Position numbers and translations under genes: made by a program. A DNA stretch of 64,000 bases, taken from Haloarcula sp. H-GB4. Its GTDB lineage: Archaea; Halobacteriota; Halobacteria; Halobacteriales; Haloarculaceae. The notes below the pieces were generated by a model, which had not been told where the DNA came from, ran no database searches, and saw nothing but the letters and a program-made list of their open reading frames with translations. The stretch's first letter is position 1; every line of letters starts with the position of its first letter. Of this stretch, positions 14,613-63,891 are shown piece after piece. The DNA is taken from assembly GCF_030848575.1 (NCBI RefSeq), contig NZ_JAVDDX010000006.1:62001-126000 (forward strand), in the 5' to 3' direction.

Positions 14613-14628
14613 CTCTATGACACGCTAG
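14613..14628. repeat. Orphan terminal inverted repeat of the 2.1-kb cargo element family
   Basis: CTCTATGACACGCTAG matches, apart from its first bases, the right terminal repeat of the element at 61278-63381 (TTTCTATGACACGCTG). No partner repeat is visible within 2 kb. The 14446-14630 stretch before it has no convincing gene and may be a decayed element. Confidence 0.4.
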
Positions 14629-56577: not shown

Positions 56578-56820
56578 CCAACCCGTCCTGTCTTGGCCTC
56601 GGCTCTTACCGAAGACAGCAAAACACTGGTATCTGTCTCGAGGTTGGTAGATCGGGCTGTGCAAGATGCACAGCACGAGTCTTGCACGACGGTGCAGTCT
56701 ATTCGAAACCGAAATTATCGGTCAGTTGTGAATACGACAGCCTTGATTATGCTACGTGACGAGCTACTGCGCAGATTTATCATCGTCCTCCTCATAAGTC
56801 AGAGGTGAGGAGAACTACAG

Positions 56821-57129
56821 ATGTGCGGGGAGCAGGTCTCGCTCGACACCATTCTTGATGCTGTCTATGACCTCGGATATGACTCCATTGATCGGGCTGA
56901 AGGGTTTCCAGACGAAGCAAGCGGACAAGTCGCACTCCCAGAAAAACATCGCCGAGAACACCCAGAAGGGCTGCGGCGTTTTCTCCCGCGTGTCTACTGT
57001 GACGCAGGCAATCCAGACCTCGTTCCTGATGACCTCCGCGCGGCTGTTGAAGAGTGCGGCTGGACTGTCCAAGCAATGGGACGGGACGGCCAGACAGTGA
57101 CGGTTGTCATCTCAAGGAATGGTGTGTAG
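56821..57129 (+). CDS. Hypothetical protein
   Basis: 102 residues. Contains LDTILDAVYDLGYDSIDRAE, a charged middle (LPEKHRREHPEGLRRFLPRV) and CDAGNPDLVPDDLRAAVEEC, with the end VTVVISRNGV. No recognised family and no hairpin leader. A GAGGTGAGGAG stretch 10-20 bases upstream of ATG 56821 could serve as ribosome-binding site. Confidence 0.5.
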   Translation: MCGEQVSLDTILDAVYDLGYDSIDRAEGFPDEASGQVALPEKHRREHPEGLRRFLPRVYCDAGNPDLVPDDLRAAVEECGWTVQAMGRDGQTVTVVISRNGV

Positions 57130-57287
57130 TGGGTGAACGTCTCTGACGGATTGATCTACCGATATTGTCGTATCACCAACGGACGCCAATCGCTGCATTG
57201 ATCCTCTACATCTTGCACGGGAACCAGTGACAACATCATCAGGTCGACAACTGTTTCACTGTATCAGAGGGTGTCATAGAACTCTTC

Positions 57288-57896
57288 TCACACCGTGATG
57301 ATCGTGCTTCCCGGATTGTCTCCGCGTTCGTAATTGGTGATTGCGACGACTAGGCGAAGACACAGTGCGAGGAAGACCTGCGCTCGTGCGTGGACGCGGC
57401 CTCGGGCGTGCGTTCGCCCGAGGCCGCAGTCCTTCACTGATTCGTTGGTTCGTTCCACTCCAGTGCGGCGATTGTACGTCTGGTTTAGTATCGATTGTTT
57501 CAGCTGTACATCCTCGCTGTGTTTCTCAATGCGGTCCTCGACCCTGTATTCGATATCTTTCGGGTCGTCAGCGTTTCTAGCATTGTACGGGGCGACTGGC
57601 ACGACCCCTGTGGCCAGCAGGTGGTCGTGCCAGTCGAGGGTGTCGTAGGCGCTGTCACCGACCATCCAAATCGGCTTGGCGACGGCGAGCGCGTCACAGG
57701 TGACGCGCATCGCTGTCTCTTCTGGCGCTTGTTTGCTCTCGGTGAACTCCGCTGCAATCGGTATTTTTTGTCCGGTCGAAACAATCGTACAGCCGTAGCC
57801 GTAGTAGTACTCTTCATCGGTTGGATCGTAGCATTTCGACGCATCTTGGTCAGCGGGCATCGCCCTCACGTCGGTTGAATCGATGCAGTAGGTCAA
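57288..57896 (-). pseudogene. Transposase C-terminal half (interrupted)
   Basis: About 202 residues (continuing upstream in frame to the insertion): CIDSTDVRAMPADQD (first Asp), IWMVGDSAYDTLDWHDHLL (second Asp) and YNRRTGVERTNESVKDCGLG (Glu of an R-(2)-E-type end), so an IS4/IS5-like DDE enzyme. The N-terminal half is at 59042-59437. Four long inverted repeats lie inside this half. Confidence 0.85.
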
Positions 57897-57920
57897 GTCG
57901 AGCAGGCCGCGCCGTAGTAC

Positions 57921-59024
57921 TTAGGAGAAGAACTGCAAGCGAGAGCTGAGGAATTCGTCGATCCATGATTTGGCGAAGCTCAGCCGAGACGTGAGTTGTT
58001 CGAACAGTTCTGAGACGAGAGCGCGGAACTCGTTCGCGCTCTCGACAATCAGTGGAGAGGCTTCCCATTTCAGACTCTTCCAGATCTGCTCGATTGGGTT
58101 GAGGTCTGGGGATCCAACCGGTAAGAAAACGAGATCAATCCCGAGTTGATGGGCACGCTTGCGTGTGAATTCGCACGTGTGCGCGAAGTGATTATCCAAA
58201 ACGAGCAGAATCCGCGTTGCGGGATTCTGCTCGCGGATCCTCTCTAAACACTCACAAATCCGTTCTTTCGTCTGGTCTTCTGGGAAACTGACCACACTCT
58301 CACCGTTGAGTGCGTAGAAGCCGACCGCTGGTTCGAAAATCTTCACCAGCGGTCGTTCATGATGCGGATCATCGACATACCACAACCGGCGCGAGTTATC
58401 GTACGGCTGTGGATGCGATGCATCGAAAAAGCCGACAACAGTGCCTCCATCTGTGCAGACATCCTCATCGACGACCCAGCCTTCCTCGTCGTCGTCTTCG
58501 CGTTTATTGTGTGGTTCCTCAGTATCCTCGGCGAGCGCGTCGTTGACGCGCTCGTCGAGAATTTCTTCGGCATTATCTGGCCGTGACGGACGTTTTGTCC
58601 GTGGAATTGCGTATGACAATCCGAGATCCTTGAGAAACTCACCCAGGTAGACTGGATGGTACTCAACGCCGAACTCGTCGTTGATGAGATGCTGGATTTC
58701 CTGTGGTTGCCACGGTTGGCCGTCACGGAGCATCTCCAAGAGTTGTTCCTGCTCGTCTTCGCCGAGCTTCGGGGGACGTCCGTCCCCGAAGTTCGGCGTT
58801 AATTGGCCAAGACCACCTTCGTTCCAGCGACGTGCCCACCGACTACCCGTCGATTCAGATTTGCCAACGCGGTCAGCTGCCTCCTCAAGGCTGTCGCCCT
58901 TGTAGAGATTTTTCACGAACGTGAGGCGGCGGACGACCTTCGGATCGTCCGCCTCCGATAGCAACCGATTGAGATCATCTTCACTCAGATGGCGGACGAT
59001 CTCTTTGCGTCGGTCCCCACTCAT
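57921..59024 (-). CDS. IS630-family transposase
   Basis: 367 residues. The N-terminal helix-turn-helix pair (SLEEAADRVGKSESTGSRWA, PWQPQEIQHLINDEFGVEYH) is followed by a DDE domain: VGFFDASHP (first Asp), RILLVLDNHFAHTCEFTRKRA (second Asp) and LNPIEQIWKSLKW (Glu), the typical IS630/Tc1-mariner ending. It sits inside another IS between hairpin arms (57897-57920 and 59064-59086). Appears intact, with several internal inverted repeats. Confidence 0.93.
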   Translation of the reverse strand: MSGDRRKEIVRHLSEDDLNRLLSEADDPKVVRRLTFVKNLYKGDSLEEAADRVGKSESTGSRWARRWNEGGLGQLTPNFGDGRPPKLGEDEQEQLLEMLRDGQPWQPQEIQHLINDEFGVEYHPVYLGEFLKDLGLSYAIPRTKRPSRPDNAEEILDERVNDALAEDTEEPHNKREDDDEEGWVVDEDVCTDGGTVVGFFDASHPQPYDNSRRLWYVDDPHHERPLVKIFEPAVGFYALNGESVVSFPEDQTKERICECLERIREQNPATRILLVLDNHFAHTCEFTRKRAHQLGIDLVFLPVGSPDLNPIEQIWKSLKWEASPLIVESANEFRALVSELFEQLTSRLSFAKSWIDEFLSSRLQFFS

Positions 59025-59041
59025 TGCAACACCTTCTCAGG

Positions 59042-59437
59042 CTATCCCCATAACTTCACTTGGGTACTACGGGCGGCCTGCTCGACGAGGTGGTCAAAGA
59101 CTTCGTCGACGACGTGTTCGAGGTCAGTAAGGAACCGATCGACCGCGTCTCTTGACGGCGGTCGATCGAAGCCACAGCTCAGCCAGACAACCGTGTTCTG
59201 AAGCTCCCGCTCAGCAGGACGAATTCCGTAGATATCACGGTAATAGCAGTGGAGGAACCCACGCAGCATCTCTGGTGGTTTATGTTCTCGTGTTCGCCCC
59301 GTCTCCGCCGGGGCGAACACGTCGAACTCGCCAAGAAACTCGAAGGAGAGATGCTCAAACAACGCTAACGTCTCGGTCTCCGCGACATTGAAGAACGACT
59401 CTACCGAAGGCTCATTCTGCAGGGTCGCTGAGTCCAT
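59042..59437 (-). pseudogene. Transposase N-terminal half (interrupted)
   Basis: 131 residues from ATG 59437, including the helical N-terminal region FLGEFDVFAPAETGRTREHK, PPEMLRGFLHCYYRDIYGI and a DNA-binding-like SRDAVDRFLTDLEHV. The frame ends in the IS630 insertion. A perfect 13-bp inverted repeat lies at 59289-59321. Confidence 0.83.
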
Positions 59438-59522
59438 ACCACCTCAGCATTCACCCCGCTCTTTGGTGTGGTAACTGTTCTATGACACCCTCTGTATCAG
59501 GCAAGACTCTCGCTCTCTGTTG

Positions 59523-60577: not shown

Positions 60578-60596
60578 TCCTCAGTTGAAATTGCAG

Positions 60597-60857
60597 TCAA
60601 TCCGGCAGTAGCCGATCCAAGACGACACTCGTCCCGTCCTCGGTCCGGGGCACTGTATTCTCCAGCAAGTGCTCGTCATTTTCGTCGACGTCGAGAATGC
60701 CGGGTTCGACGATGCGAGGACCGTCCTCCCGTTCGCCGGTGAGGGTCAGGCACAGCTGGCCGTCGACCTTCCCACCGACAACCGAGATCGTCGCAACTTC
60801 GTCGGGAAACGAGACGGTCGTCCAGCCATCGGGTTTCCGGACCCGCAATTCGGTCAT
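60597..60857 (-). CDS. Small hypothetical protein
   Basis: 86 residues, mostly predicted strands (VRKPDGWTTVSFPDEVATIS, VDGQLCLTLTGERED) with an acidic end. On the opposite strand between two leader genes. No hairpin leader. The competing + strand frame here has no halophilic composition, so this strand is preferred. Confidence 0.55.
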   Translation of the reverse strand: MTELRVRKPDGWTTVSFPDEVATISVVGGKVDGQLCLTLTGEREDGPRIVEPGILDVDENDEHLLENTVPRTEDGTSVVLDRLLPD

Positions 60858-60911
60858 CAGTTCTTCTTCTCTCGGCGAAAAGCATCAGCGCTCTGGCTGG
60901 GGTACGAGCCA

Positions 60912-60942
60912 TTTTGTGTCTCCCTCGGAGCCGGAGGAGATC
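60912..60942 (+). promoter_or_regulatory. Hairpin leader (copy 11), short form
   Basis: TTTTGTG then TCTCC...GGAGGAGA (60919-60923 pairing with 60936-60940), loop with GGAGCC, 2 bases to ATG 60943. The 3' arm contains GGAGG. Confidence 0.68.
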
Positions 60943-61188
60943 ATGAGTACCACAGCGCCTTCCTTCGAGGAGTATGACTTCGACCGCGGCGACCACGTCC
61001 GAACCGACTGGACCGACGGAGACGGCCCACTCGATGCAGTCGTCGGAACCGTTACAGAAATTTCGCGTTCCGGCGGCAACGTGATCGTCTCTGTCGAGGC
61101 TGACGACGACCAGTATCCCGACCGCTCGATCTACGGCGGGACCCATGATTGCGCTCCCGAGTGGGTCGAGACAATAGAGCAATCCTAG
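60943..61188 (+). CDS. Small beta-rich hypothetical protein, leader-gene set
   Basis: 81 residues from ATG 60943. FDRGDHVRTDWTDGDGPLDA, VVGTVTEISRSGGNVIVSVE and a final HDCAPEWVETIE suggest a small SH3-like barrel (KOW/hypervirulence-like proteins share such a pattern), though I cannot name the family. Confidence 0.65.
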   Translation: MSTTAPSFEEYDFDRGDHVRTDWTDGDGPLDAVVGTVTEISRSGGNVIVSVEADDDQYPDRSIYGGTHDCAPEWVETIEQS

Positions 61189-61214
61189 TCTGACAGCAAG
61201 GGAACTCATCCCTA

Positions 61215-61272
61215 TTTTCTGAGCCTCTACCGGGCGAGAGGCGTTCCAGAGAGAGCATCTTAATTACCAGCT
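61215..61272 (+). promoter_or_regulatory. Hairpin leader (copy 12), long form, separated from its gene by an insertion
   Basis: TTTTCTG then a perfect 6-bp stem GCCTCT/AGAGGC (61223-61228 with 61237-61242), loop ACCGGGCG, then GTTCCAGAGAGAGCATCT and ATGTC at 61273. The gene that should follow now begins at 63382, after a 2.1-kb element. Confidence 0.75.
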
Positions 61273-61277
61273 ATGTC
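61273..61277. repeat. Target-site duplication ATGTC (left)
   Basis: ATGTC, repeated at 63382-63386 on the other side of the element. It includes the start codon of the target gene. Confidence 0.7.
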
Positions 61278-61444
61278 TAGCGTGTCATAGAAATCGTCAC
61301 ACCCGATTTACTGCGGTGCAACCGGGCGTGAAAATGTTGGGATAGGTATAGTTACAGAAGGTAGTGCAAGATATAGAGGGTCAGAGGGTAGAATCAGCAC
61401 CGTAACCGAAACTAAGACGGGATCTATTTTTGCTCTGTGGTGTC

Positions 61445-61744
61445 TCAGCGGTCGTCACCGCGATTGGGTAGCGGACGCCCCGAACCAAAGTGTGTCCCTC
61501 GCCTCACTGTCTCTTCGCGTCGATTGAACTTGATTACTCCCACAGACTGTAACTCGGGGAGATGGACGTGGTAGAATTCGTACACCAGTGTAACGTACTC
61601 CTCGGAGGAGAGCGTTTCATCATCCCGAACAATCGGCGTCGCGTCGATCGTCTCCTCCGCTGCTAAGGCGGCCACTATTCGTTCTTGTTGCGTTCGCAGC
61701 GCAGTCTGGAAGTCCTCACGACTCGACGCAGTCTGCTCATTCAT
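61445..61744 (-). CDS. Small winged-helix-like haloarchaeal protein (cargo)
   Basis: 99 residues. RIVAALAAEETIDATPIV, SSEEYVTLVYEFYHVHLPEL and LQSVGVIKFNRREETV form the helix-helix-wing pattern of a family of small haloarchaeal HTH proteins whose regulators usually sit beside HalOD1 proteins. Likely DNA-binding regulator. On the same strand as the next two cargo genes. Confidence 0.7.
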   Translation of the reverse strand: MNEQTASSREDFQTALRTQQERIVAALAAEETIDATPIVRDDETLSSEEYVTLVYEFYHVHLPELQSVGVIKFNRREETVRRGTHFGSGRPLPNRGDDR

Positions 61745-61898
61745 CTTCAGTCGTGACTCCGAGGTCGAAATTCACACACCCACACTCCGAGCACTCGTCC
61801 TGATACGGGGTGACCTCTGCACCGGGCGTCCGTTTCCGGCCTATTCGAGGCGTTCTGTAGCTAGCACACTCAATGCGATACGGGAGCATTGGTGCTGA

Positions 61899-62240
61899 TT
61901 ACGCCCCCTCGACAGGATTCGCCTCGATGGCATCTTCACCAGTGACCGTGATCTCGAATCCTTCGTACCTGAAGGAAATATTGACACCGCTCCCCAGGTC
62001 GGCAGACGGCCCCGTCGCCAGTCTGTCAAGCGCGTCTGTATCGACAACGGACTGGAGTGTTGCTAGGTGCTGTGGCTCTCTGTCAAGAGCGGCAGCGACA
62101 ATTGCAATGACCGCTAAACTCGTCGGGTCACGAGTACTATCGTACGTAGCTTTGAACGATTTCCTTTCCGCGTCGAATTCAATCGGGCTCAGTGACTCCG
62201 CAATCCCTCTATCGACAGCCATCGTCTGAGAAGTTTTCAT
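61899..62240 (-). CDS. HalOD1 output-domain protein (cargo)
   Basis: 113 residues. The HalOD1 pattern is visible: FDAERKSFKATYDSTRDPTS, SLAVIAIVAAALDREPQHLA, PLxxVVDTDALDRL-type centre and the late strand pair VNISFRYEGFEITVTGEDAI. HalOD1 domains are thought to be output modules of haloarchaeal signalling proteins. Here it stands alone, between two regulators. Confidence 0.8.
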   Translation of the reverse strand: MKTSQTMAVDRGIAESLSPIEFDAERKSFKATYDSTRDPTSLAVIAIVAAALDREPQHLATLQSVVDTDALDRLATGPSADLGSGVNISFRYEGFEITVTGEDAIEANPVEGA

Positions 62241-62317
62241 TAATAAAACAGAGGTCGTCTACGGGGTTGAGGGTGGCTTTTGCTATAGCAATGTGTTCTT
62301 ATACGAATTTTCTGTGC

Positions 62318-62968
62318 TTATTCTTCAGGAGAGATGAGGGTACTGGCTACGAGGCGTCGGAGACCGCGCTGCAACCGTGATGAGACCGCCTGTCGGGTGA
62401 TGCCGAGTTCATCTGCGAGATCGGCTTGCGTGGCGTCGCGTGGCGAATCGAAGTATCCGCTCGAATACGCCAGTAACAGTGCGTTCCGTTGCCCATCGGT
62501 CAGGTCGTACTCCCGGTCGGATTTGAGTGACGAGATCGCGTGTAGTTCAGTCAGTTCGATCGGGATGTCGTAGTTTTGGCAGTACGTCTGGAAGTCGGCG
62601 AGGTCTTGTTGCTCGTTTGCCCGGACTGCGAACGTCCATTGCTCTTCGCTGCCGATGCCGGACAGGAGGGTGACCTCGGTATTGACGATGGCAGTGAGAA
62701 TGCTCTCGTGATCGAGGTTCCAGTCGATACGGACGAACATCTGTTTCTCGACCTGGTCGATTATTTTGACCTGATCGATTCCGATGTCAGCACTCAGATC
62801 TGTGGTGAGTTTGTCGGTGTCATCAGCGGAGATCCAGAAGTAGGGAATGACAGCCTCGCCCGTCGGGACGACACGATCTAACTCGATTGTGACATCCGTC
62901 AACTGCTCAAACACCACGGCCAACGGGAAATCGTCGTGCTGGATCGTGAACGAGGCCTCGATTGTCAT
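62318..62968 (-). CDS. HTH-10 (bacterio-opsin activator-type) regulator (cargo)
   Basis: 216 residues. N-terminal sensor-like region of strands (MTIEASFTIQHDDFPLAVVF and similar), then the HTH_10 domain at the C-terminus: LTDGQRNALLLAYSSGYFDS, ATQADLADELGITRQAVSSR and LQRGLRRLVASTLI. This family activates metabolic or light-response genes in haloarchaea. Its targets are unknown; carriage inside an element bounded by inverted repeats is notable. Confidence 0.88.
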   Translation of the reverse strand: MTIEASFTIQHDDFPLAVVFEQLTDVTIELDRVVPTGEAVIPYFWISADDTDKLTTDLSADIGIDQVKIIDQVEKQMFVRIDWNLDHESILTAIVNTEVTLLSGIGSEEQWTFAVRANEQQDLADFQTYCQNYDIPIELTELHAISSLKSDREYDLTDGQRNALLLAYSSGYFDSPRDATQADLADELGITRQAVSSRLQRGLRRLVASTLISPEE

Positions 62969-63365
62969 ACTAACCGACTAGTGGGTCTCCCTCTTGTGTC
63001 AGTCGCTGTTGAGACCCATGCGGGGACGGGCGAGATGTAGTCAGTCCAGTTCCTTCGCTGCTCACTGGTGTGTGGGTTCCAACCAGGGAGCTGGAGTGCT
63101 GACTATGCGCTGTGTATTCGGTAAACCCACTAAAACCGATTGCCGCTTGAAGCCTTCAATAAGGGTGCATGAGTGGGAGCGATGGCCTCAGACGCTCCCG
63201 AGGCCCCAACCATTTGTGGAGGCCGCCAAGGTTGTGATACGTTAGCAGAGGTCATAATTCATTCGTCTGTTCTGCTCGGTGGAGTCAGTCCGCTGGTGAC
63301 TGATTCGCGCTGTGTATCTTGCACACGCGTCTTGACAAGACTTGGATAGGCAGACCGTGCGGAGC
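62969..63365. other. Right part of the cargo element, no clear gene
   Basis: About 400 bp. Contains the 63296 VTDSRCVSC frame (18 codons to a stop) and TGCGCTGTGTATTCGG at 63105, both similar to the GCGCTGTGTATCTTGCA sequence at 55789. No convincing gene. Confidence 0.5.
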
Positions 63366-63381
63366 TTTCTATGACACGCTG

Positions 63382-63642
63382 ATGTCGAAAAAACACGCGA
63401 TCCAGACCAAGTTGAAGGGCTACGTCGTCATGACTCAGAGCGGGCCAGACGGCCTCGGCTTTGGCACGTACACACGCACCCATCCTGCGTACCTGAAAGC
63501 GCGCATTGAGGCACAGCAGTCTCCAGCAGCCGTCGTCGTGGTCAACGTCAAGCGAGCACGCCACATCGCTCGCGAGTACCACGGCTGGGACCTGCCAAGC
63601 GAAGACGAACTCTGTCACCAAGCGATGGAGGGCGATGCGTGA
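63382..63642 (+). CDS. Small hypothetical protein whose leader was displaced by a transposon
   Basis: 86 residues from ATG 63382 (MSKKHAIQTKLKGYVVMTQS). Strands and helices GLGFGTYTRTHPAYLKARIE and VVVVNVKRARHIAREYHGWD. The start codon is part of the ATGTC target repeat; its hairpin leader is 2.1 kb upstream at 61215, beyond the cargo element, so expression is probably altered or lost. Confidence 0.68.
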   Translation: MSKKHAIQTKLKGYVVMTQSGPDGLGFGTYTRTHPAYLKARIEAQQSPAAVVVVNVKRARHIAREYHGWDLPSEDELCHQAMEGDA

Positions 63643-63821: not shown

Positions 63822-63854
63822 GTCCCGTCGAGTGCGTACTCGTACTGGAAGCAA

Positions 63855-63891
63855 TTTTGTGTCCCCCGAGAGGGTGAGGGGTTTCCCGAAC
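63855..63891 (+). promoter_or_regulatory. Hairpin leader (copy 13), short form
   Basis: TTTTGTG then CCCC/GGGG (63863-63866 with 63878-63881), loop CGAGAGGGTGA, then TTTCCCGAAC to ATG 63892. Confidence 0.7.

Follow-up and report, generated by a model that had tools for sequence, protein, structure and literature searches.

Regulator genes inserted at a start codon in Haloarcula point to exchangeable gene cassettes in haloarchaea

Gene transfer between genera is frequent in haloarchaea. In laboratory RMCE, inverted non-identical sites let a cargo be replaced but not lost. In the dif (pdif) modules of Acinetobacter plasmids, genes lie between short inverted sites that consist of two ~11-bp arms and alternate in orientation, and an enzyme supplied in trans shuffles the modules (PMC13141974; PMC6449649); the spacers are identical in the reported recombination of dif modules (PMC13141974). 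Mobile insertion cassettes or transporter IS (IS231/MIC231, IS1595) have IS-like tips and passenger genes, carry no transposase and are moved in trans (PMC3129680), and integron arrays, including archaeal integrons and CALINs, are made of small cassettes with a repeated junction and genes in one direction (PMC9668308). No mention of haloarchaea was found in the archaeal integron paper (PMC9668308), the word "cassette" is absent from a review of archaeal tyrosine recombinases (PMC8371274), and we found no description of a haloarchaeal cassette-platform system in the open-access literature.

Here we analysed a stretch of 64,000 nucleotides from Haloarcula sp. H-GB4, termed the window, in which comparison with empty sites delimits an insertion of 2,104 bp. 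Its parts and surroundings are as follows.

61174 to 61272, plus strand: leader of the target gene, which adjoins the gene in relatives and is 86% identical in those with an empty site
61273 to 61277, no strand: left copy of the target duplication ATGTC, present as a single copy in five relatives with an empty site
61278 to 63381, no strand: inserted element, platform plus cassette
61279 to 61363, plus strand: left outer end with tip AGCGTGTCATAGAAA, conserved in ~110 left ends (model R1)
61364 to 61400, plus strand: left inner site GTGCAAGATAT..GAATCAGCAC, with an 8-bp tandem duplication in the spacer (AGAGGGTC AGAGGGTA) read directly from the sequence
61445 to 61744, minus strand: cargo, DUF7344 protein of 99 aa
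61741 to 61889, minus strand: cargo, small CxxC protein of 49 aa, its stop just past the end
61899 to 62240, minus strand: cargo, HalOD1 protein of 113 aa with a weak DdfA match
62318 to 62968, minus strand: cargo, BAT/HTH_10 regulator of 216 aa
63296 to 63324, minus strand: right inner site GTGCAAGATAC-ACAGCGC-GAATCAGTCAC, 33.9 bits with a matrix trained without this genome
63325 to 63380, minus strand: right outer end with tip AGCGTGTCATAGAAA (model R2)
63382 to 63386, no strand: right copy of ATGTC, the first codons of the downstream gene (from the start of the pNG500 homologue and the empty-site relatives)
63382 to 63642, plus strand: target gene of 86 aa, with its leader now 2.1 kb away and homologues on Haloarcula plasmids

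The original prediction described a non-autonomous element placed exactly at a start codon, and this was borne out, with the ATG lying within the duplication and no transposase in the cargo. The inverted repeats, given as complementary at 15 of 16 positions, are 15/15 identical between AGCGTGTCATAGAAA at 61279-61293 and the complement at 63366-63380, while the sixteenth, outermost base is mismatched (T/G); ATGTC was likewise confirmed on both sides of the element. In five Haloarcula relatives (L234, L235, L236, L246 and L252) leader and gene are joined by one ATGTC, the empty site that had been looked for, and the three genes were not met at this place without the repeats. Because these relatives carry the empty site, the question is settled: the comparison proves that 2,104 bp were inserted at the start codon and that 5 bp were duplicated there. 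The target gene is one found on pNG500/pHMA133-type plasmids, and its annotated homologue in Haloarcula marismortui pNG500 begins at the ATG lying in the duplication. A leader-like motif, ATTTTGTGTCYCCC, is repeated in the window at 60907-60924 and 63850-63867, upstream of small plasmid genes.

Of the cargo it had been said that it lacks a transposase and holds three regulator-type genes; these stand (BAT/HTH_10, HalOD1, DUF7344), and a fourth ORF, the CxxC protein, has to be added. The HalOD1 protein weakly resembles DdfA, a disk-determining factor of haloarchaea, at 51.3 bits and so short of the 70-bit cut-off. Homologous regulator operons were found elsewhere without platform ends, and a search for the same ends around homologues of the window's cargo in other genera returned none, bar one weak right-end remnant in Halobellus. 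As the homologues in other genera are without the same ends, this particular set of regulators was not caught moving as a cassette.

The element belongs to a family in which differing cargo lies between a left end of ~114 bp and a right end of ~85 bp, inner sites included, that are both conserved. By BLAST, the left end was found in 13 of the 22 genera of the taxonomic family and the right end likewise in 13/22; models of the two ends match 24 (left) and 44 (right) of 95 genera of the order, some of the right-end matches covering the inner portion only. In a phylum-wide draw of 295 genomes, all hits among the matches listed fall in the same order. Left and right ends face each other within 20 kb in 59 pairs, with lengths of 0.25-14 kb, against ~0.1 pairs expected by chance (arithmetic from end density). 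A direct repeat of at least 5 bp within 2 bp of the ends is present in 37% of 46 family elements vs 1.35% of mismatched flank pairs; given this background, the 5-bp repeat of the window's element would by itself arise by chance about once in 75 cases. Empty sites reveal duplications of other lengths as well: genome G034 carries a 709-bp family member where window positions 60596-60606 are the empty site, with an 11-bp duplication, and a site in Halorientalis, Haloplanus and Halobellus, compared with an empty Halorarius halobius, has the 7-bp duplication TCTCGTA. By the three empty sites, target duplications are 5, 7 and 11 bp. Such comparisons show that the platform inserts, apparently by transposition.

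Approximately 54 family elements were read for cargo, and content differs nearly every time, a point that the original prediction had proposed to check. Its idea that the element specifically moves regulators was not supported, since, besides HalOD1 and DUF7344 proteins, the platforms carry AspBHI/Mrr, Mrr and DpnII-type restriction enzymes, an N4/N6 methylase, an HNH protein, a PemK toxin, TrkA-TrkH, a histidine kinase, a pilin and lipoproteins. Defence-type genes (Mrr/DpnII-like nucleases, DNA methylase, SocA-like plus PemK pairs) are abundant in L124, L130, L157, L129, L132, L156 and L163. The transposases inside a few elements look like nested ISs, with their own ends shown for G156. When an autonomous member was sought among the 13-14 kb elements, the best candidate, G156_1, proved to be a nested IS of the IS1182-like kind that sits in the left inner site and has ends of its own.

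The tips lead to the insertion sequence next to the element.

57268 to 59491, minus strand: neighbouring IS with AGGGTGTCATAGAA ends in common with the element and a 9-bp repeat CTGTATCAG; an IS630 (57921-59024) splits its transposase gene

The original prediction that element and adjacent IS have tips in common was correct (GTGTCATAGAA), with the amendment that the DDE_Tnp_1 transposase gene of this IS is interrupted by the IS630. The longer motif AG[C/G]GTGTCATAGAA is common to the element, the window IS, MITEs and an intact IS with platform-type tips at C1:1426343-1427402 of the same genome. The MITEs, of ~147 bp, lie at L042:2697-2843 and L047:2279-2427, and their first ~23 bases resemble the platform tips. 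More AGCGTGTCATA-type pairs lie at L042 16622-16769 and 17263-17409, and a solitary end, AGCGTGTCATAGAGTACGTCACACACCC, at window 14613-14626, for which no partner was found. Movement in trans by a related IS, as suggested before, is plausible with the intact C1 IS and the ~147-bp MITEs bearing the same tips. The tips in common make it most likely that the platform depends on a DDE transposase encoded by an IS whose tips are nearly identical.

The first reading described the outer shell and overlooked a second layer inside it. Each end carries an inner 29-bp inverted site, GTGCAAGATAC-N7-GTATnnnGCAC, with arms of 11 bp and a spacer of 7 bp, and at both ends conservation stops sharply after position 28-29 of this site. 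The left consensus is GTGCAAGATAY-AGAGnnT-nnATnCAGCAC and the right one GTGCAAGATAC-AnGGCGC-nnATnnnGCAC. A strict palindrome search of the own genome gave one site, and a weight matrix built without this genome was used instead; it found extra sites in the genome, including a pair at 56659 and 57218, and no site of at least 13 bits in six shuffled windows. No known RNA families were found at the inner sites. Site orientation alternates along the window (55806-, 56659+, 57218-, 61364+, 63324-), as it does for most array sites. The window's left inner site may be inactive owing to its duplicated spacer.

The pair at 56659 and 57218 belongs to a second platform, which we call type B.

56601 to 57267, no strand: type B platform with other tips and a different cassette, absent from H. 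marismortui pHMA133 and with other cargo in two Haloarcula plasmids
56659 to 56687, plus strand: type B right inner site
56821 to 57129, plus strand: type B cargo ORF of 102 aa, no Pfam match
57190 to 57218, minus strand: type B left inner site

At this place three Haloarcula plasmids hold three different cargos, one of them a two-cassette array, and homology is lost at 56681-56687 and 57192-57203, within the inner sites. The type B platform of Haloarcula sp. CBA1115 holds a different single cassette, and that of H. sinaiiensis pHsi139 (L257:2221-3550) has two cassettes joined by a double site. The latter locus is a candidate for catching array growth.

Comparisons of the same place with different cargo, and of the same cargo in different places, are what support exchange at the inner sites. 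Five groups of elements have the insertion place in common and the cargo not. In same-place pairs the outer 60 bp are 80-100% identical on the left and 73-100% on the right, against 63% and 71% in unrelated elements, whereas the 60 bp just inside the sites are 43-57% identical, which is background; in most of these pairs the right outer ends are 93-100% identical up to the site. The flanks of G156 and G236 are 99% identical around unrelated contents of 13.0 and 14.2 kb, and one place holds four cargos on six replicons from at least three named genera (plasmids of Halorientalis, Haloplanus and Halobellus) with a right outer end that is 98-100% identical. Conversely, G013 and G204 have cargo with 86% identity along the entire ~1.8 kb from site to site and outer ends at the family level of 62%; it encodes PemK, the only protein matched by Pfam, and a protein that we take to be SocA-like. 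These comparisons give good support to an exchange at the inner sites that involves the cargo rather than the entire element.

Cassettes also occur in arrays in other haloarchaea, where a right site, a linker of 37-38 bp and a left site make up double units that recur every 0.5-2 kb; 18 were collected. The array of G230 has several cassettes, all read in one direction, the first of which carries regulators of the window's gene kinds (by eye HTH_10-like, HalOD1-like and DUF7344-like). No recombinase or integrase gene was found beside the arrays in the three (from three genomes) examined, and several tyrosine recombinases are encoded elsewhere in every genome tested. One cassette contains a C-terminal tyrosine recombinase fragment (PF00589, E 3e-7; L150:2387-2674).

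We consider it probable that the element is a transposable platform that is mobilised in trans and holds a cassette, which a recombinase likewise acting in trans exchanges at two dissimilar inverted sites. In the outer layer, the platform (left ~85 bp, right ~56 bp, tips AGCGTGTCATAGAAA) would insert by itself and leave a short target duplication, most likely through a DDE transposase that an IS with nearly the same tips supplies in trans. In the inner layer, two 29-bp inverted-repeat sites would face inward with the cargo cassette between them, their spacers dissimilar (AGAGnnT on the left, AnGGCGC on the right), so that a recombinase would swap left with left and right with right, a rule that we infer from the two site classes; the cargo and the inner half of each site would be replaced while the platform stays, and in some genomes cassettes would line up as arrays through the 37-bp linker. 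The layout of the sites, with inverted arms of 11 bp and 7 bp between them, suits a tyrosine recombinase, and a site-specific recombinase, probably of this type, would carry out the exchange. The ~110 left and ~110 right ends included no empty platform. The dissimilarity of the two sites would account both for the cassette not simply being lost and for this lack of empty platforms, which is expected under exchange and not under simple insertion and excision.

Several observations count against this model. Target duplications of 5-11 bp would be odd for one DDE transposase, and no recombinase lies beside the examined arrays. Spacers of alleles at one place are identical at anything from 0/7 to 7/7 positions. 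At one place small cargo-linked differences reach ~15-30 bp outside the left site, such as homologous recombination would leave. An alternative is a plain IS-derived passenger element, in the manner of a mobile insertion cassette or transporter IS: its ends, inner sites included, would be transposase binding sites, and its cargo would be replaced by homologous recombination between conserved ends. The tips matching those of an IS and MITEs in the same genome, the direct repeats at the ends, the left exchange zone beyond the inner site and the lack of a nearby recombinase all agree with this reading, which we nevertheless hold to be unlikely: with ends of unrelated elements only ~63-71% identical, conversion should give mosaic outer ends, yet in most same-place pairs right ends are 93-100% identical up to the site, and the same sites also function in a platform whose tips differ and in arrays that have none. 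It is very improbable that the inner sites merely bind a regulator or structural protein and are kept for cargo expression, with cargo arriving by illegitimate recombination; inverted 11-bp arms suit a dimeric regulator too, and the cargo reads from right to left more often than not (32/50 elements), but this leaves unexplained the breakpoints at the sites on both sides and the full-length transfer of cargo between platforms. That the double site is attC-like and recombined as a folded single strand is hardly tenable, for although the arrays run head to tail, with genes in a single direction and a junction of 93-94 bp that recurs, most junctions fold no better than shuffled sequence (z -2.6 to +2.1), no integron integrase was seen, and every cassette here is bounded by sites on both sides.

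Returning to cassette exchange, the data point to an undescribed archaeal gene-cassette system in which the window's regulators are one cargo of one platform. More tentatively, haloarchaea might own a gene-cassette system of several transposable platform types, with exchange at two dissimilar inverted 29-bp sites as a natural device for swapping cassettes, arrays, and a trade of restriction, toxin, regulatory and transport genes among genera. If true, a cassette system with recognisable 29-bp sites would be a direct mechanism for shuffling small accessory genes, would make accessory and defence genes findable by position, and would be a candidate for a genetic tool with which to swap cassettes in Archaea. 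One question also becomes testable, namely which recombinase recognises GTGCAAGATAC-N7-GTATTCAGCAC.

Compared with known systems, RMCE is engineered, whereas the exchange logic proposed here is drawn from comparison of genomes. The arrays resemble those of integrons in their small cassettes, repeated junction and single gene direction, and differ in lacking the single-strand fold, in the site itself and in its presence at both cassette ends; as the fold test is negative and IntI was not seen, we do not file them as integrons. As in mobile insertion cassettes, the tips match an IS in the genome and the passengers come without transposase, but here there are inner exchange sites, the cargo is far wider and decoupled from the ends, and duplications are 5, 7 and 11 bp vs 9 bp for the window IS. 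Since spacer length and spacer identity fail, the modules are not filed as dif modules either: the spacer is 7 bp, not 6, and differs between alleles, and there are two dissimilar site classes (L and R), a 37-bp linker and a setting inside transposable platforms of haloarchaea. Like pdif modules, each module here is flanked by inverted sites made of two 11-bp arms and site orientation alternates along the replicon, and bacterial dif modules are the closest known kind, here set inside IS-derived platforms.
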